Below the pieces are notes generated by a model. The model did no database searches. It was not told the origin of the DNA and was given only the letters and a program-made list of their open reading frames with translations. This document shows, one piece after another, positions 2,940 to 28,351 of a stretch of 29,197 nt of DNA (position 1 is the first letter of the stretch; every line of letters starts with the position of its first letter). The stretch is taken from the IMG/VR virus record IMGVR_UViG_3300044574_000024, positions 1-29,197 of that record. One strand, written 5' to 3'. This stretch comes from a virus. The position numbers and the translations under genes are program-made.

Positions 2940-3567
2940 GTTGTTTCTTCTGCCTTTCCATCTTGAGCGCCTTTGCATATAGCGTGGATGCTTTTTCTTT
3001 GACCAACTTCCAGGTCAGATTGGAAACCTTGTCCGGAAGAGTCTTGCCGTCCATATGATCATACTCATGCTGAATGATGCGCGCCGTATAGCCAGAGAAC
3101 TCTTCTTCCTTGTGGGCGCCGGTCTCGTCCTGCCAGCGAATGCGAATGCCTAGCGAACGCTCGACGGACACAAAGCAGAACGGAAAGGAAATACAACCTT
3201 CCTTCATCTTCATCGTCTCAGGGGAATAGGCAATGATTTCCGGATTGAAGAAGACCTGATTCTGATTCTCATAGCCGATGCAGAACACGCGAACAGGCAG
3301 ACCAATCTGTACCGCAGACAGACCCACGCCGCCGTATGCTCTCATAGACATGATAAGCGACTGGGCGATGGAGATGGGATGTCCAAATCGAGGATTCTCA
3401 AAGTCAAAAGGCTCGGAAACAGATTCCAACATAGGATCGTTGTCGGGGAGAAGCTTCTGTACCGACCCCTTGTGTGCAAGGGCTTCCGTCTTGATAGTGA
3501 GATTGGTCGGAACTGGGCGACCACCCATTGGCTCTAGGCCTTCAATTTTGATTACTGGATTGGACAT
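2923..3567 (-). CDS. def: Peptide deformylase
   Basis: 214 residues, a metalloenzyme that removes the formyl group from N-terminal methionine of new proteins. All three family motifs are present: GVGLSAVQ (80-87; family G-x-G-L-A-A-x-Q), EGCIS (123-127) with the metal-binding C125, and QHEYDHMDG (166-174) with H167, E168 and H171. Deformylases are known in marine and other T4-like phages, where they may favour particular phage or photosystem proteins. An extended N-terminus of about 30 residues precedes the usual core. The AGGA at about 3577-3580, just after the stop of gene 46, serves as ribosome binding site. The 3' end overlaps the next small ORF by 17 bases. Confidence 0.93.
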   Translation of the reverse strand: MSNPVIKIEGLEPMGGRPVPTNLTIKTEALAHKGSVQKLLPDNDPMLESVSEPFDFENPRFGHPISIAQSLIMSMRAYGGVGLSAVQIGLPVRVFCIGYENQNQVFFNPEIIAYSPETMKMKEGCISFPFCFVSVERSLGIRIRWQDETGAHKEEEFSGYTARIIQHEYDHMDGKTLPDKVSNLTWKLVKEKASTLYAKALKMERQKKQHASVG

Positions 3568-3579
3568 ACTATATTTTCC

Positions 3580-5301
3580 TTATGTTGACATTTGACTGAA
3601 ACTATGGACCTTCTCAAATTTTATGACACTCTTGAACTTGTCGTACAGGAACTCGTTACGATGTGAGATAACAAACAGATTCGTGTTCGCTCCCAACTTC
3701 TTGATGATCTTCAGGAACTCGTCGGTTCCTTGGGAGTCGAGGGATGAGTCGAAGACTTCGTCCATGATGAGCAGGTTGGTATGTACAGAATTCTTGCGGG
3801 CCGCGACCTCACGCCAGGTGAAGAGTAGTGCGAGGTCAATGCGGAGTCTTTCTCCCGCGGAGAAAGAGTTATATGTAAATTTATCTCTATGTCGTGACTT
3901 GATAATCTCTTCGAAATTTTCATCGAGTGTGAAGTTGACATAACAATCCATATCCTGCAAGTGCTTGTTGATCTGTGTATTGATAAGCGGAAGATAGCGT
4001 CGGATTTCGCGAGTCTTGATTCCATCGTCGCGCAGAAGCGTGGCCGCAAAGTCCAGATACTTGCGAGTCTCGATCAGTTCCTCGCGCTCTTTCTTGGTGT
4101 CTGCAATGTCTTGATTGACCTTATCCACAGACACGGAAGGTGTAGCAGTCTGAGTTACCACAGGCGCGTCAAGGTCTTCAAGCTGCTTCTGTAGCTTCTT
4201 TATATATTGCTTGTTGCCTTCGATCCGTGTGTTGTGCTTCACATTCTGCGATTTCAGTTCATCAATTTTTGCAACCTCGACTTGCAGCGCGGCAATCTTC
4301 ACCTCAATATCTGAAATCTTTGTATTGATCTTATCCAACGCATCGTTATACTCTGATACGGTATGTGTATGCTTCCGTACTTCCTCTGCCTTGAAGCCGC
4401 TCTCAATGTCTTGAGAGCATGTCGGACAGTTCTCATTGACCTCATAAAAGGTGATGATCTTGTTTGCAGCGTTTCGCTTTTGATTAATCTGACCGTGCAG
4501 GACCTTGAACTCGGAACGTTTGTTCGTAAGCGCGGCAAGATTCTTTGGAACATCCACGGATAGCTTGAGTTTGTCCAGATTGTTCTGTACGGATAAAGAG
4601 AAGGCCAAGTTGTCTGCTTCCGCTTTGTCAATTTCGGTCTGATAGGACGTCCGACGCGCTTCCTTGTCATCCTTGATTTCCTCAACATGCTTTGATAGCG
4701 TCTTTAGGCGCTCTTCCAAAACCGTCATTGACATGCGATTTGTTTCCAGGGACTCCCTGTTCATCTGAACCTTGCGCTTCAGCACTGCGTTCATGAAAGA
4801 GAATATTTCGATGTCTAGAATCTCCTCGATTACCTCGCGGCGGCGACCCGACTTCAGTCTCATGAATGGGATATACGAATCGGAACCCAGGACAACGATT
4901 TGCGAGAAGGCCTTCAAGTTCATCTTCAGCACATGTGTTTCTAGCCATTTCTGATAATCCTTTATGGCGGCGTCTTGTGCCACCAGGTTGTCATTCTGAT
5001 AAATCTCAAACAGATTAGGCTTGATGCCGCGAATGATCTTGTACGGCACGCCACCGGAAGTCAATTCCAATTCGACTACACAATCCTTGCCATTGATCGA
5101 GTTGACCAGTTCTGGCTTGCCGATGTCCCGAAAAGGCCTGTTGTACAGCGCAAAGGTCAGCGCGTCAATCAGGGTAGACTTGCCGGCACCATTCTCACCT
5201 ACAATGAGAGTGTCGGTTGCCTTCTTCAGATTGATAGTTGTGGGGACTTTGCCGGTGGAAAGGAAGTTCCGCCATTTGATAGTAAGGAAATCAAGTTGCA
5301 T
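3580..5301 (-). CDS. 46: Recombination endonuclease subunit gp46 (Rad50/SbcC-like ATPase)
   Basis: 573 residues from the ATG at 5301 (a TTG two codons upstream is less likely); T4 gp46 is about 560. Walker A GENGAGKST lies near residue 35, the ABC signature SFSAGE near 479 and Walker B LLIMDE near 510, separated by a long coiled-coil region. The coil carries a CPTC zinc-hook motif near residue 292, the hallmark of Rad50-type proteins that dimerise through Zn. With gp47 it processes DNA ends for recombination-dependent replication and, in T4, takes part in host DNA degradation. The start lies 2 bases after the gp47 stop (TGATAATG), so the two subunits are translationally coupled. Confidence 0.95.
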   Translation of the reverse strand: MQLDFLTIKWRNFLSTGKVPTTINLKKATDTLIVGENGAGKSTLIDALTFALYNRPFRDIGKPELVNSINGKDCVVELELTSGGVPYKIIRGIKPNLFEIYQNDNLVAQDAAIKDYQKWLETHVLKMNLKAFSQIVVLGSDSYIPFMRLKSGRRREVIEEILDIEIFSFMNAVLKRKVQMNRESLETNRMSMTVLEERLKTLSKHVEEIKDDKEARRTSYQTEIDKAEADNLAFSLSVQNNLDKLKLSVDVPKNLAALTNKRSEFKVLHGQINQKRNAANKIITFYEVNENCPTCSQDIESGFKAEEVRKHTHTVSEYNDALDKINTKISDIEVKIAALQVEVAKIDELKSQNVKHNTRIEGNKQYIKKLQKQLEDLDAPVVTQTATPSVSVDKVNQDIADTKKEREELIETRKYLDFAATLLRDDGIKTREIRRYLPLINTQINKHLQDMDCYVNFTLDENFEEIIKSRHRDKFTYNSFSAGERLRIDLALLFTWREVAARKNSVHTNLLIMDEVFDSSLDSQGTDEFLKIIKKLGANTNLFVISHRNEFLYDKFKSVIKFEKVHSFSQMST

Positions 5302-12039: not shown

Positions 12040-12648
12040 TTATATAGTGATTCTGGAAACTCTGTAACCTTTGTGGAATCTAGTGGTGTATCGGGCAGTA
12101 CCTAAAAGATTACCTTGATCCAAATTGTTCTCTCTCGCGAACTTCTGGAGATTGGTTATTACTGTGTCGGACCCGTCCGGGTTAAATACACGATAAGTTT
12201 TAGCTAACTTTTCAGCAACGATTCGTTTTTGATTGTCTCCTTGTGTGTGTCCCATCAAGGACTTACTTCGTTTTTCATTTTCAAGTTTTTTTTGTTCGGA
12301 TGTCCTTGCTGCCATTCTCTTTTTCTGGGACTCAGATATCTTCCGTTTGATTTCTTCCGTCATTGATATGTCCGGCATTTTTTGATTGTATCCATTGGGC
12401 CAGATGGTGTTGTGATAAGTTATCCAATGAGTTTCGAGTTCAGTAAGCTGGGCCGGATTATCGGTTTCTGCCAGTACAGTATAATCAAACTTATTTATTC
12501 CATGCTTTCGGATGGCACGATGAAAGTAATAATCTGACCCAAATTTGGATTCAGATAGATGACAGCGTTTACGTTGGTCTGGATGAATGGTTTGTCCGAT
12601 GTAACGTTTTCCGTTTGTTTTGTTGTGATAGCAGTAAATAATGCCCAT
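12040..12648 (-). CDS. GIY-YIG homing endonuclease
   Basis: 202 residues from the ATG at 12648, chosen because AGGAA lies 7 bases upstream; a TTG six codons earlier is less likely. The GIY-YIG domain covers about residues 1-90: IIYCYHNKTNGKRYIGQT carries the two signature tyrosines, the arginines in DQRKR (25-28) supply the catalytic Arg, and ELETHW contains the metal-binding Glu (about 72). Next comes a NUMOD3-like helix (TEEIKRKISESQKKRM) and a C-terminal DNA-recognition module (YRVFNPDGSDTVITNLQKF, HKGYRVSRI). This is a free-standing mobile element just downstream of gp23, with its own sigma70-like promoter. Base composition is more A/T-rich than the neighbours. Confidence 0.9.
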   Translation of the reverse strand: MGIIYCYHNKTNGKRYIGQTIHPDQRKRCHLSESKFGSDYYFHRAIRKHGINKFDYTVLAETDNPAQLTELETHWITYHNTIWPNGYNQKMPDISMTEEIKRKISESQKKRMAARTSEQKKLENEKRSKSLMGHTQGDNQKRIVAEKLAKTYRVFNPDGSDTVITNLQKFARENNLDQGNLLGTARYTTRFHKGYRVSRITI

Positions 12649-12678
12649 ATGATGTTCCTGACTCAAGTTGTTACTAAC

Positions 12679-15618: not shown

Positions 15619-15626
15619 TTATTTAT
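15619..15626 (-). promoter_or_regulatory. Late promoter octamer of gp22
   Basis: ATAAATAA on the minus strand, overlapping the gp21 stop codon and 31 bases before the gp22 ATG. Confidence 0.65.
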
Positions 15627-16293
15627 GTTTTACGATATTTGACAGGAAATCTTCGAACAGAAGAGACGCGCGCGCTTCGACTTGAGACTTGGACATGATC
15701 TTCAGGGACTTCTTGGTTCCTTCCATCCATTCCTGTAGTTTCTCGTCAAAGTAGAACTCTCGTCCCTCCATGATTCCTCTCACAAAAGCGTCCGGCGCCG
15801 ACGGATCATGAACGACATCGCCGGCAGTCGCAAGCTTGAAATCTCCCTGAACCTGATCTGTTCCGTTCACATTTTTCACTGATCCCAGACCGCGCGAAGA
15901 TGTTCCCATCTTGACTCCACCGTCTATGAATGCTTTCACAATCTTTCCGTTCGGGGTATCCAGAACTTCAGCCGTGCCCCAGTAATCATTTCCATCTTCC
16001 GTCAAATCCGTGATCTTATGTGACACAAGATGTAGATTGATCTTGGGCCCATCCGGATGTCCCAGTTCCCCGACAGCACGACCTGGATTGACATATCCGA
16101 TATTGTACTGACGAACTGCTTCGGACATGACAGACTTGGGATAGATTCGCTTGTTGCCATTCAGGCGATTGGACTGAAGAAAGATTCCATGAATCTTGTA
16201 CTTGCGTCCACCGCCTGGCAAATCTTCGGCCAAGCACTGCATTGCTGGAGTGCCTGACTCAAATCCCATTGTTTCTGTAATCAACTTTGACAT
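15619..16293 (-). CDS. 21: Prohead protease gp21
   Basis: 224 residues (T4 gp21 is 212). Herpes-protease-fold serine protease that cleaves capsid and core proteins after (L/I)-x-E in the prohead. Motifs: AVGELGHPDG with H79, KMGTSSRGLGS with S132/S133 as nucleophile candidates, and DVVHDPSAPDAFV with the conserved Asp. The N-terminal YKIHGIFLQSNRLNGNKRIYP is the typical family start of the fold. It follows the gp68-like ORF by 7 bases and lies directly upstream of its substrate gp22. Confidence 0.94.
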   Translation of the reverse strand: MSKLITETMGFESGTPAMQCLAEDLPGGGRKYKIHGIFLQSNRLNGNKRIYPKSVMSEAVRQYNIGYVNPGRAVGELGHPDGPKINLHLVSHKITDLTEDGNDYWGTAEVLDTPNGKIVKAFIDGGVKMGTSSRGLGSVKNVNGTDQVQGDFKLATAGDVVHDPSAPDAFVRGIMEGREFYFDEKLQEWMEGTKKSLKIMSKSQVEARASLLFEDFLSNIVKHK

Positions 16294-16300
16294 TTTTTCT

Positions 16301-16543
16301 CTATAGTCCTAATGATTTTCTGCGACGCAATGAACGCTTCAGTTTTGTCCTGATGCGGCTCAGTTTTGCCTTTCTCTTGAACTTTGCCTTGCGCGCACCC
16401 ATCTTTCTCTTGCGGCGTTCGGAAGGCTTCATTCGGGTAAGCTTGCCTTTTCGTATCGTATAACCTTTTACTGCGGAGACCTTCCTGCGTCTCTGAACTT
16501 TTCCTTGTCTGACTCGAACCTTGACGACCTTGAGACGACCCAT
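16301..16543 (-). CDS. 68: Basic prohead core protein, gp68-like
   Basis: 80 residues, almost one-third Arg plus Lys, with no acidic run: RVRQGKVQRRRKVSAVKGYT, then LTRMKPSERRKRKMGARKAK, ending RSLRRRKSLGL. Position between the gp67-like gene and gp21 and the family pattern (V-K-G-Y-x-I-R-x-G-K-L-x-R-M, R-R-R-K-S-L-G-L) suggest a gp68-type core protein that would neutralise DNA or acidic scaffold. It has no clear Shine-Dalgarno in front of the ATG at 16543. The frame is open upstream as far as the A run of the gp67-like gene, so it is probably the second half of a frameshift fusion. Confidence 0.6.
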   Translation of the reverse strand: MGRLKVVKVRVRQGKVQRRRKVSAVKGYTIRKGKLTRMKPSERRKRKMGARKAKFKRKAKLSRIRTKLKRSLRRRKSLGL

Positions 16544-16587
16544 TCTCTGCGTATTGCGTTTGCGTCGCTGGGAACGAGCTGTCTCGT

Positions 16588-16845
16588 CTAGGACGTTTTC
16601 TTCACTAACTTTTTTTTTTTATCTTCGTCGGAGACGTCGCCTTGCTTGAGAACCTGAAGGTCTTCTTCCTGATCGTCGATCTTTTCCGAGAAGTAGATCG
16701 CGGCGACATGCTTCTTGCGCTCGTTGAGAGCCTCTTCAGCCAGATCGCCAAGACGATTGTAAATCATTTCCTTGAAGGAGACGCCAAAGTCCGTATCGCC
16801 TTCGACTGATTCCTTGAAGAATGAAAGTAGAGGGTTCGTTGTCAT
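16588..16845 (-). CDS. 67: Prohead core protein, gp67-like
   Basis: 85 residues in the zero frame. The helix FKEMIYNRLGDLAEEALNER followed by KKHVAAIYF, then an acidic segment (KIDDQEEDLQ), resembles T4 gp67 (80 residues: helical N-terminus, acidic C-terminus), a core component of the prohead. The ATG overlaps the upstream stop (TAATG). The C-terminus after the 11-A run (LVKKTS) is short and atypical; shifting by -1 at A-AAA-AAG continues into the gp68-like ORF, giving a fusion of about 181 residues. Confidence 0.65.
   Translation of the reverse strand: MTTNPLLSFFKESVEGDTDFGVSFKEMIYNRLGDLAEEALNERKKHVAAIYFSEKIDDQEEDLQVLKQGDVSDEDKKKKLVKKTS
16609..16615 (-). other. Candidate -1 frameshift site A-AAA-AAG
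   Basis: Within an 11-A run (16610-16620) the gp67-like zero frame reads AAA (16614-16612) and AAG (16611-16609), the same heptamer that drives -1 frameshifting in E. coli dnaX. After the shift, 22 sense codons lead to the gp68-like ATG without a stop. A 6-bp stem-loop (16573-16588, loop ACAG) starts 20 bases downstream, farther than the usual 5-10; no obvious upstream stimulatory Shine-Dalgarno. RNA polymerase slippage on the A run, or a miscounted homopolymer, would give the same product. Confidence 0.6.
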
Positions 16846-17399: not shown

Positions 17400-17407
17400 C
17401 TATTTAT
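17400..17407 (-). promoter_or_regulatory. Late promoter octamer of the decoration-like gene
   Basis: ATAAATAG on the minus strand, overlapping the stop codon of the upstream gene and 24 bases before the ATG at 17375. Confidence 0.7.
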
Positions 17408-18239
17408 TCTTTACGGATTTCTTGACTGCGGCCTTCTTGACATTGGACGCAGCCGGCGATTTTGGCTTAGGCTTAGGCTTTGAACCCATAGACTGTCCCG
17501 TCGGGGCGCCCATGTCATTGTTTCCTATATAGTGCTTATGTGCGAACTCTACCATCTTCAGGAACGACGGATTGTCCCTGTTGAGTTTGCGATCAAAGTG
17601 TACCTTGTTTTCCGGATGAGTCAGACGATCATAGGTTGTCAGCAGGGCATGAGCGGTAAGCATGTCAATCTTCATCTTTGAACCATTACGGAAATGTACA
17701 TGTCCAGGTTCGCGATTTGCGACGATTCCTTTGAGATGGGATAGGACTGTCGAGGTATTCTCACCTGTCGGGGAGACGGGCACTGGCTTGCCGACGCCCT
17801 CCTCCAGAACCTCTTCGACGACCTCTTCCGCTACCGTCGCATTGTTCTGGGCGGCGGGAATAGACACATAGCGATCCAGCTTGTCGGAATAGTATAGACC
17901 TACGCGCTGGCCGTTTGGAAAGTTTCGAATGGCTTTGCGACGAAGAAGAATCATGACTGGAAAGCTTCCATTGGTCTTGTTGTTGCTGTCTTCTTCTATT
18001 ACATCTTCCGTCACAAATGCATGAGAAACCCTGCCTTCGTGATGTGCAAGAGTAACTTCTTTGCCGGTATAATGATGACTCCAACGACCATCGGAAACTT
18101 TTTTATATCCATGACCCTTTAGTTTTTCATGTGCTTCGTCCGAGGGATCACCGACATTGAAATCGAGTTCGTCTCGCGCTTTGTTGCGTGAGGCCTCGTC
18201 CAATAATAGTGACTCGCGGAGTTCGGAAAATCTTTTCAT
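17400..18239 (-). CDS. Putative internal or virion protein with capsid-targeting-like N-terminus
   Basis: 279 residues. The N-terminus MKRFSELRESLLLDEA resembles capsid-targeting peptides of T4 internal proteins (MKT-x-QEF-type), with L-D-E before A as a plausible gp21 site at residue 15. A compact segment follows (EKLKGHGYKKVSDGRWSHHY, LAHHEGRVSHAFV), then an E/V-rich linker. Next is HVHFRNGSKMKIDMLTAHAL with the helix RDNPSFLKMVEFAHKHY, a module I have seen only in uncharacterised phage virion proteins. The C-terminal tail is Lys/Pro-rich (KPKPKPKSPAAS). It lies between the portal group and the core genes, starting 4 bases after the neighbouring gene. Function unknown. Confidence 0.5.
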   Translation of the reverse strand: MKRFSELRESLLLDEASRNKARDELDFNVGDPSDEAHEKLKGHGYKKVSDGRWSHHYTGKEVTLAHHEGRVSHAFVTEDVIEEDSNNKTNGSFPVMILLRRKAIRNFPNGQRVGLYYSDKLDRYVSIPAAQNNATVAEEVVEEVLEEGVGKPVPVSPTGENTSTVLSHLKGIVANREPGHVHFRNGSKMKIDMLTAHALLTTYDRLTHPENKVHFDRKLNRDNPSFLKMVEFAHKHYIGNNDMGAPTGQSMGSKPKPKPKSPAASNVKKAAVKKSVKNK

Positions 18240-18243
18240 GGGT

Positions 18244-19230
18244 TTAGCTTGACCAGTAGGCCTCGGATTCGGGGCTTGAGTTGTAGCGTGCTTGGGAATT
18301 TTCGCGAGCAGACTTGCGATCCTTCTTGAACTTCAAAGGGGCGAAACGCAGCTTTGGGTCCGGACGGTACTTGCCAGCCTTTTCAAACGCCTTGATTGCC
18401 TTGTTCTTCTGGGCAATCGTTGCCTGCTTCTTGACGGCCTCATCCAGATCATCGTCCATATAGTGAGTATTGTTAGTCAAGAATGGTTTGGCGCCTCGCG
18501 CGATTCGATAATTGCGTGTTGCAGCCCTATCCAGTCTATCGATCTTTTTTTGATCAGGCTTTTTAGTTGCCACTGGAGTACCATTTAGTCCTTTTGGTCC
18601 ACCAAATCTTTCGGCCGCGCCGGCCTTCTCATGCTTGTCCGCGCGCATTCTCGCAATGCCTTGGCCAGCGACGGCGCGATGAATCTTAGTCAGAAGACTC
18701 TTGCCTTCGTCCACTGATACTTCTTCCTTCGTCAATCTGTCTTTCTGACCTGTAGGCGACCATGTAACTTCATCCAGAGATTCCTCAGACAAATCATCAG
18801 GCTGTCCAAAGTAGGATTCGGCAACCATCTTCTTATATTCATTCAGGGCGCCAGTAACGCGTTCCGAAAGTGCTGCATAGACTGCATCCTTCAGACCCGC
18901 AGATGGCTCGGCGGACTCTAGAATGGAAATGATGTTGAATGTGGTCGAGATATCTTCGCCCATTTTGGAGATGTATTCTCCCTGCTTTGCCTTACGGAAA
19001 GGCTTCTCGCCAGACGCAATACGATCATAGCGACGCTTGGTTGATTGCATTCTTGTCAATTGCTTCTCATCTTCATCACTAAATCCACCGTTTGTTGCGC
19101 GAGCGTCTTGTCCATAGGCGCGTTGATTCTTGTATGCTTCTTTTGCACGACCGGCAGCATTGCGCTTTCCAGCAACGGCACGAACTGCCTTCTTGAGGAA
19201 TCCTTCGTTTAGATTATCTTCATCAGCCAT
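18244..19230 (-). CDS. Internally repeated basic protein, probable prohead core or internal protein
   Basis: 328 residues, Lys/Arg/Ala-rich. Two related blocks are visible: residues about 9-80 (FLKKAVRAVAG ... TKRRYDRIASGEKPF) and about 174-250 (LLTKIHRAVAG ... ATRNYRIARGAKPF). Multiple (L/I)-x-E motifs occur between and around them: NLNEG near residue 8, ISILES, ALSERV, ALNEYK, DLSEES, SLDEVT and DLDEAV, so gp21 could cut the protein into fragments with two similar basic peptides. It sits directly after portal gp20 with a late octamer 30 bases upstream and CGGAGAA near the ATG. Not recognised by family; role as packaged internal peptides is inferred. Confidence 0.5.
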   Translation of the reverse strand: MADEDNLNEGFLKKAVRAVAGKRNAAGRAKEAYKNQRAYGQDARATNGGFSDEDEKQLTRMQSTKRRYDRIASGEKPFRKAKQGEYISKMGEDISTTFNIISILESAEPSAGLKDAVYAALSERVTGALNEYKKMVAESYFGQPDDLSEESLDEVTWSPTGQKDRLTKEEVSVDEGKSLLTKIHRAVAGQGIARMRADKHEKAGAAERFGGPKGLNGTPVATKKPDQKKIDRLDRAATRNYRIARGAKPFLTNNTHYMDDDLDEAVKKQATIAQKNKAIKAFEKAGKYRPDPKLRFAPLKFKKDRKSARENSQARYNSSPESEAYWSS

Positions 19231-27017: not shown

Positions 27018-27470
27018 CTACCTTTTTCGATCCAAGTCTGCGCGCGCGCGCACTTCGGAACCAAAGTTTTCGTGTTGTTTTTTACCTTTTAATGACATAC
27101 TTATTTTATCTTTTCGTTCTTGTGTATAATTTTGATTGGCTATAGCGGATGCTTTTCGTTGATGCGCTCGACCAGATTCCGTCGCAAACCTCCTCTGTTG
27201 AGCCTTAGCCATATTTTGTCTTGCCTCGTCTGAGAGTTTCCGTCCTTTTAGGCTGGTTGATCTTCGATCTTTCGTCTCTTGCGATTGCTTCTTACCAAGC
27301 CGCGACAACCCTATTTTCTTTTTTGATTCTTCGGTATGTTTTTGGCCAAAAAACCAGGCGCCGCCATGATTCCAAGCCTTCTCAATTTGAGTCATGTCTG
27401 GCGGTTCATATTCATACTCCTGGGTCGCGACCTCCAGAAGTTCATCAAGTTTTTTATATATTACTTTCAA
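27018..27470 (-). CDS. NUMOD3-type homing endonuclease relative, probably frameshifted
   Basis: About 150 residues. Repeated NUMOD3-like units are clear: HTEESKKKIGLSRLGKKQSQ, ETKDRRSTSLKGRKLSDEAR and YTQERKDKISMSLKGKKQHE, a DNA-binding module of homing endonucleases. I see no GIY-YIG or HNH catalytic core, so it is a fragment or a DNA-binding remnant. The frame ends at TAG (27018-27020) after a GC-dinucleotide tract (27040-27051). Removing one CG would extend it as RRLGSKKVVLPDGTWTWSK to a TAA at 26983-26985, just before gp15. TTG at 27470 overlaps the gp14 stop and has GGGGG upstream; GTG at 27482 is the other option. It is wedged between genes 14 and 15. Confidence 0.6.
   Translation of the reverse strand: MKVIYKKLDELLEVATQEYEYEPPDMTQIEKAWNHGGAWFFGQKHTEESKKKIGLSRLGKKQSQETKDRRSTSLKGRKLSDEARQNMAKAQQRRFATESGRAHQRKASAIANQNYTQERKDKISMSLKGKKQHENFGSEVRARADLDRKR
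27040..27051. repeat. GC-dinucleotide tract at the endonuclease frame break
   Basis: Twelve bases of alternating G and C, a typical slippage site. One unit fewer would restore a longer reading frame for the endonuclease ORF. Confidence 0.6.
27458..27466. repeat. Left-hand copy of the 9-bp direct repeat
   Basis: Minus strand AAGTAATAT immediately after the gp14 stop codon, matching 26980-26988. Confidence 0.4.
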
Positions 27471-28351
27471 GGTTGCCCCCACGGATTTGTTTCGGTAAAG
27501 TCAGTAATAACATTACCTTCCTGTTGAAGCTGAACATTATCGGATGTGTCGTAGGTTAGGACTGAGTTGCGTGGATCGACATTCGTCAAAGTATACGATG
27601 TTCCAGTTGTTGCACCAATGACATTCTGACCTGGCTGGAATATACCTTTCACATGAATCACATCCAGATTTGCAGTCGATCTTGTCCAGGATGTGACCGT
27701 GCCCTGTGCAGTAGCGGCAGCCAGAGATGCACCCTGATATACAACTTCCGAGAAGGAGTATTCGGATGTTCCTGCACCTACTACGACCGGCAGACGAACC
27801 ATGTATGTGTCCGTGAACTTGACATCATCGATTTCTTCAATGCCAGTAGAGACTTTGTTCTGTGAGAACTTCCACATTTCAGTATAGACTTCCCAGAAGT
27901 ATGGATCGCGACGGCCGAGTTGATAGAAGTTTTTGTCCTTGTCTACGAACTTGATTTCGAACATCTTGCCGAATGTAGGAATCCAGATCAGATCGCCTTC
28001 GCGAGGACGCTGAATCAGATTCTGCGGAACATATCTCATGAAGTGCTTGTTCGTGATGAGTAGATTGGTGCCTTGACGGGCTTCCAGACCAAATTTGGAC
28101 AAGAACTCACCTTCACCTCGATAGTTTTCCACATCCTCGATATACATCGGCATCGCATATGCGCGCTGAAAGTATGCGAGTGGGTCTTCACCGAAGAGCA
28201 TGTCAATCGCATCTTCGGATTCACGCACGATGTAATAGCAGTCGGCCCCGAAGATTTCGATGGCTTCGTTAAGAAGATCATCTACGAGTTGCTGCTCACC
28301 TGTGCGTGATCGCTGTGAGTGAAAGTTGAAATACTTGTTCGTGCCGGCCAT
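27467..28351 (-). CDS. 14: Neck protein gp14
   Basis: 294 residues (T4 gp14 is 256). Family features: KYFNFHSQRSRTGEQQLVDD, LNEAIEIFGADCYYIVRE, LFGEDPLAYFQRAYAMPMYI, then GEGEFLSKFGLEARQGTNLL and DLIWIPTFGKMFEIKFVDKD. With gp13 it forms the neck ring that seals the filled head and joins the tail. The start lies 3 bases after the gp13 stop, so the two are coupled. The C-terminus overlaps the possible start of the downstream endonuclease ORF. Confidence 0.93.
   Translation of the reverse strand: MAGTNKYFNFHSQRSRTGEQQLVDDLLNEAIEIFGADCYYIVRESEDAIDMLFGEDPLAYFQRAYAMPMYIEDVENYRGEGEFLSKFGLEARQGTNLLITNKHFMRYVPQNLIQRPREGDLIWIPTFGKMFEIKFVDKDKNFYQLGRRDPYFWEVYTEMWKFSQNKVSTGIEEIDDVKFTDTYMVRLPVVVGAGTSEYSFSEVVYQGASLAAATAQGTVTSWTRSTANLDVIHVKGIFQPGQNVIGATTGTSYTLTNVDPRNSVLTYDTSDNVQLQQEGNVITDFTETNPWGQP

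Follow-up and report, generated by a model that had tools for sequence, protein, structure and literature searches.

A poly-A-interrupted, gene 68-like head-core gene in two T4-like phages, probably read by slippage

Introduction

In a T4-like virus (IMG/VR record IMGVR_UViG_3300044574_000024, positions 1-29,197; the whole of this 29,197-nucleotide stretch is referred to as the window), two short open reading frames (ORFs) ahead of the prohead protease gene are set in different frames around a run of 11 A residues. The locus raises the question of whether these ORFs are two genes or one and, if one, how its second half is read. The T4 core contains about 340 copies of gp67 and about 240 of gp68 (PMC9958956), and the T4 protease gp21 has the cleavage motif L/I-X-E (PMC9026906). 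A sequence-only reading of the window had proposed that a dnaX-like -1 ribosomal frameshift fuses a gp67-like to a gp68-like core protein. Here we follow up that proposal by comparison with relatives in IMG/VR, among them a sister phage, L002 (IMGVR_UViG_3300032249_000222).

Results

Reading frames around the A run

On the minus strand of the window the genes are ordered gp20, three small ORFs, the leader ORF and the basic ORF, gp21, gp22 and gp23, with the following features:

20941-19265, minus: gp20
18244-19230, minus: 328-aa ORF directly after gp20, holding the positional gp67-like domain
18778..18912, minus: second gp67-like domain, about residues 107-151 of the 328-aa ORF (own HMM E=2.1e-5; phrog_2088 E=4e-5)
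16588..16845, minus: gp67-like leader ORF, 85 aa, C-terminus DKKKKLVKKTS* (HMM, gp67-like domain, E=1.8e-8)
16610..16620, minus: run of 11 A, proposed slippage site (10 A in L002)
16588..16590, minus: zero-frame stop TAG, 19 nt 3' of the A run
16544..16609, minus: linker of 22 codons in the basic-domain frame, VSEENVLDETARSQRRKRNTQR (L002 counterpart VKTEDVIDESARSQRNKRNTQR)
16583..16591, minus: L-D-E, putative gp21 site, cut before T (I-D-E in L002)
16301..16543, minus: basic gp68-like domain, 80 aa, adjoining gp21
15619..16293, minus: gp21 prohead protease (PF03420 E=7e-35; phrog_207 E=6e-67)

Elsewhere in the window, a GIY-YIG endonuclease ORF (12040-12666; PF01541 E=9e-9), likely a homing endonuclease, lies immediately downstream of gp23, and a NUMOD3-motif ORF (27018-27482; PF07460 E=3e-10), probably a homing endonuclease remnant, sits amid structural genes. 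A 431-aa phage protein (1438-2733) carries an Aspartyl/asparaginyl beta-hydroxylase domain (PF05118 E=3e-13).

The leader ORF ends in GAC GAA GAT AAA AAA AAA AAG TTA GTG AAG AAA ACG TCC TAG, which places the heptamer A AAA AAG in the zero-frame phase. The basic frame is reached by adding one nucleotide to the run or by a -1 shift; after that shift, or with 12 A's, VSEENVLDETARSQRRKRNTQR is open for 22 codons and in frame with the ATG at 16543, whereas a run of 10 or 13 A's would be followed at once by a stop. The run length, the phase of the heptamer and the open codons leading into the ATG, all part of the sequence-only reading, were reproduced on the minus strand. By themselves the 22 open codons are probably unremarkable, as such a stretch would arise by chance about one time in three, and a run of 11 A's is, by itself, slightly unusual for the composition (0.16 expected per window; present in 7 of 100 shuffles). 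Its codons are more distinctive. AAA is a minor lysine codon (190 of 674, or 28%, in the window; 30% in L002), yet in both phages the run opens with three AAA codons; the other two KKK stretches of the window contain AAG, leaving the run as the only one of them to start AAA AAA AAA. Across the window and related DNA, 475 kb in all, the only homopolymers of at least nine residues with 50 open codons on either side were the runs of the window and L002, and both alter the reading frame.

Relatives carry the two ORFs as one gene

When IMG/VR was scanned with the basic domain, 328 relatives were found and the best 80 of these retained; two further scans using other members brought the collection to 234 loci, which comprise 96 distinct sequences. 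Fourteen loci lacking the search motif were left out of the classification that follows. Of the 96 distinct relatives, 69 have the basic domain at the C-terminal end of an unbroken, longer ORF, which in most cases is about 140 aa long and runs from a gp67-like domain at the N-terminus through a gp21-type (L/I)xE site to the basic gp68-like domain. The next-closest relative, L003, is organised in this way, with leader and basic domain in one ORF and no A run. The search for an uninterrupted gene that the sequence-only reading had suggested was thus positive, and its view that the linker is coding and both ORFs contribute to one product is borne out by the relatives.

In the other 27 distinct relatives the basic domain is a stand-alone gene with its own short leader, most often ending in a gp21-like (I/V)xE site such as IIAE/AN or FVSE/AR, and most examples read from these clades have a separate gp67-like ORF beside gp20. 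Three stand-alone genes (L050:2430-2729, L029:3010-3306 and L020:1777-2070) start with MSKTFKQFVSE/AR, MSKTFKQFVNE/AR or MITFKQFISE/AR, N-termini that we take to resemble the capsid-targeting leader of T4 internal proteins.

No run of eight or more A's or T's occurs at the junction in any of the 96 distinct relatives, so the interruption is peculiar to two phages, the window and L002; in L010, from the same contig as L003, eight A's lie well upstream of the junction, within the leader. A scan with the leader recovered only L002 again, and a scan of genome contigs found no relative. Searches of cultured phages by tblastn with the basic domain and the fused proteins, Lys/Arg-rich queries run with the low-complexity filter on, gave nothing or weak matches. 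One weak match, L092 (Pseudoalteromonas phage vB_Psh_XG4), has a 368-aa ORF before gp21 (3272-4375) that ends in a similar basic domain.

A gp67-like profile built from T4, cyanophages and relatives matches the window twice, in the leader and within residues 107-151 of the 328-aa ORF, where the wider limits of the gp67-like stretch come from phrog_2088. A similar arrangement recurs in many relatives, where gp20 is followed by a small gp67-like ORF and the basic protein is led by a second domain of this kind. In searches run alongside T4 controls, phrog_1064 (prohead, T4 gp67 family) matches 16 of 31 fused relatives (best 5.8e-8; L002 E=0.03) and phrog_3503 (head scaffolding protein) matches seven of the 31 (best 1.5e-4; window E=0.036). 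The basic domain lies before gp21 and has a T4 gp68-like C-terminus, although the hhalign match to that of T4 gp68 is weak (P 5e-4). The leader shares the helical domain of the T4 gp67 family; it is not a gene directly after gp20, from which three ORFs separate it. Since relatives carry the basic domain in a single longer ORF, and since the gp67 position after gp20 is separately occupied, the two ORFs are best called, on present sequence comparisons, one gene 68-like gene with an acidic, helical gp67-like leader. Of the gp67-gp68 fusion proposed earlier, the joint product stands, with the leader now seen as a second gp67-like domain and not as gp67 itself; the 328-aa ORF probably represents the positional gp67, enlarged by internal-protein sequence. 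The ORFs 17400-18239 and L050:1969-2430, which lie between gp20 and gene 68, have in common the motif F-P-x-G-x-R-V-x-L-Y-Y, noted by eye, and give weak phrog_696/phrog_4187 matches; they are possibly internal head proteins.

The (L/I)-x-E site noted ahead of the basic domain recurs: 40 of 52 distinct sequences, L002 among them, have it at the junction, and in many of these it stands immediately ahead of A/G-N-V-x-K-M-G-R. Most junctions lacking it have VxE in that place.

A sister phage with a different run length

L002 (91% identical in gp21) and L003 (75%) were reached via gp21 in IMG/VR. In the gp21 tree the window and L002 are sisters (98/96), with L003 next (99/100). Both sisters are interrupted at the same place, with 11 A's in the window and 10 in L002, and hence in a different phase. 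The basic frame of L002 requires the loss of one nucleotide from the run or the gain of two, or a +1 or -2 shift; after a -1 shift it reads AAG TAA, an immediate stop. In both phages the unproductive frames end within a few codons.

Differences between the two phages, counted by codon position, are [2,2,16] in the leader before the run, in its own frame, and, after the run in the basic frame, [5,3,9] in the linker and [11,6,27] in the basic domain. Other frames do not fit this pattern, and the linker is conserved in the basic-domain frame only. These differences, each in its respective frame, indicate that the leader and basic halves are both kept as protein. The strongest evidence at the locus is comparative: the codon-level conservation between window and L002 and the occurrence of the pair as one ORF in relatives.

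This pattern bears on whether the gene has split, with the basic domain now a gene of its own starting at the ATG at 16543. The window does have that ATG, and other clades do have stand-alone basic genes. However, this ATG lines up with the Met inside the K-M-G-R motif that relatives conserve, and L002 has Ser in its place, so that it is unconvincing as a start codon, contrary to the sequence-only reading; the L002 basic frame has no ATG, GTG or TTG ahead of an ATG at codon 59 (counted from 0). The linker upstream is conserved as protein, and the stand-alone versions begin with a short leader of their own that ends in (I/V)xE. The Shine-Dalgarno match at 16543 is weak (-2.9 kcal/mol), as had been claimed, but it does not set this ATG apart from its neighbours, several of which have equal or weaker matches, so it is a thin argument. 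We regard a split as very improbable.

Still less probable, in our judgement, is that a dispensable gene has recently begun to decay or is phase-variable, with a run length that drifts in the population and a basic domain made by a fraction of the genomes. Poly-A tracts mutate fast, the sisters differ in run length, and gp68 is not essential in T4 (PMC9958956); against this stand the strong conservation of the basic domain by codon position and a consensus that is off-frame in both phages.

The counts of 11 and 10 A's are consensus values of assembled virus contigs, so a continuous 12-A gene must be weighed: the window would in truth have 12 A's and L002 either 9 or 12, and the gene would be continuous as in nearly all relatives outside the stand-alone clades. 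Indel errors are commonest in long homopolymers. However, two errors would be required, in two different phages (that in L002 being either -2 or +1), and no other gene of the window appears frame-broken. A length error is unlikely on balance, though it deserves to be taken seriously. Slippage, with some free, truncated leader as its product, would be expected even if the run truly had 12 A's, much as the in-frame 9-A run of Y. pseudotuberculosis tssM3 gives shifts at 15-25%.

Ribosomal frameshifting or slippage of RNA polymerase

The dnaX-like -1 mechanism originally put forward, programmed ribosomal frameshifting on A AAA AAG, is favoured by the correct phase of the heptamer in the window, and ribosomes can also slip on poly-A. 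It fares poorly in L002, where the same shift runs into the stop. RNA folding downstream of the run found no stem at dnaX spacing in the window or in L002, with values near the shuffled expectation (near region z -0.7 and +0.9), and by eye no clear Shine-Dalgarno-like stimulator was seen just upstream of the run in GACGTCTCCGACGAAGAT. Given the difference in phase, the missing start codon in L002 and the absence of any other mid-gene homopolymer of at least nine residues in 475 kb, we consider a conserved dnaX-type -1 site improbable. A ribosomal shift of changing direction may act instead: the window would take a -1 shift and L002 a -2 or +1 shift on its poly-A. Among other phage frameshift genes, relatives are known to shift in different directions (PMC5009743).

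Bacterial RNA polymerase slips on poly-A of such length. Slippage on poly-A explains both run lengths, which a fixed -1 ribosomal shift does not, and, the gene being broken by the run, the basic half is probably made only by slipping on the A's. The junction has sequence features expected of a slippage gene, with at least nine A's at the change of frame (11 and 10) and a downstream frame that is conserved as protein and can be reached by adding or removing A's. The rapid closing of unproductive frames has been described for Thermus dnaX (PMC5009743). We therefore favour, as the probable reading of the sequences, a poly-A-interrupted gene 68 in the window and L002 that is read by slippage, most likely of RNA polymerase.

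As we picture this slippage, RNA polymerase would slip on the run to give mRNAs of mixed A number. Unslipped mRNA would encode the 85-aa leader alone, while mRNA with 12 A's (window), or with 9 or 12 (L002), would encode a full-length precursor, which in the window would be about 181 aa long. The leader would bring the basic domain into the core, and gp21 would then cut the precursor at LDE or IDE, freeing the basic domain inside the prohead. Entry by way of the leader and release by gp21 are suggested by the conserved site and by the clades in which a short leader replaces the gp67-like one.

Discussion

Many environmental T4-like phages can be re-annotated on this basis: in them gene 68 begins with a gp67-like leader, a gp21-type site marks the junction, and gp67 proper adjoins gp20. 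Slippage on poly-A may, beyond this, serve a head-core gene as a switch that tolerates different run lengths and works in either direction, in that 10 or 11 A's would both give free leader and full precursor and so set the ratio of two prohead core proteins; we hold this idea tentatively, at close to even odds. If true, slippage would take over from separate genes in setting the scaffold ratio, and the window and L002 would be T4-like phages in which a head-core gene is recoded by slippage, a case for which no description turned up in the open-access literature that we searched.

Among known systems, E. coli dnaX shares a correctly phased A AAA AAG with the window only; unlike dnaX, the locus has no stimulatory stem at the right spacing, and the shift is unproductive in L002. 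The methyltransferase gene of Campylobacter phage CPt10 is another case: it belongs to a T4-related phage, its frame is broken by poly-A, and transcriptional slippage has been put forward for it; that gene is non-structural, with the break near its end and no comparative evidence quoted (PMC2853527). The nearest parallel in layout is tssM1 of Citrobacter rodentium, in which 11 A's likewise lie just upstream of a zero-frame stop, 28 nt before it, one extra A restores the downstream frame, and a single gene gives two length variants of its protein; its mRNAs carry 10-15 A's each and about 20-25% of the protein is full length (PMC4256274). tssM1 and tssM3 are bacterial secretion genes established by RNA and protein, whereas the gene described here is a phage head-core gene known from sequence. 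Like T4 genes 67 and 68, it lies between gp20 and gp21 and has a gp67-like helical domain, and like T4 gp68 it has a basic tail with a KRR-x-x-LGL-like end. In T4, however, 67 and 68 are two separate, overlapping genes, whereas here the basic protein has a gp67-like domain as its leader and its gene is interrupted by poly-A.
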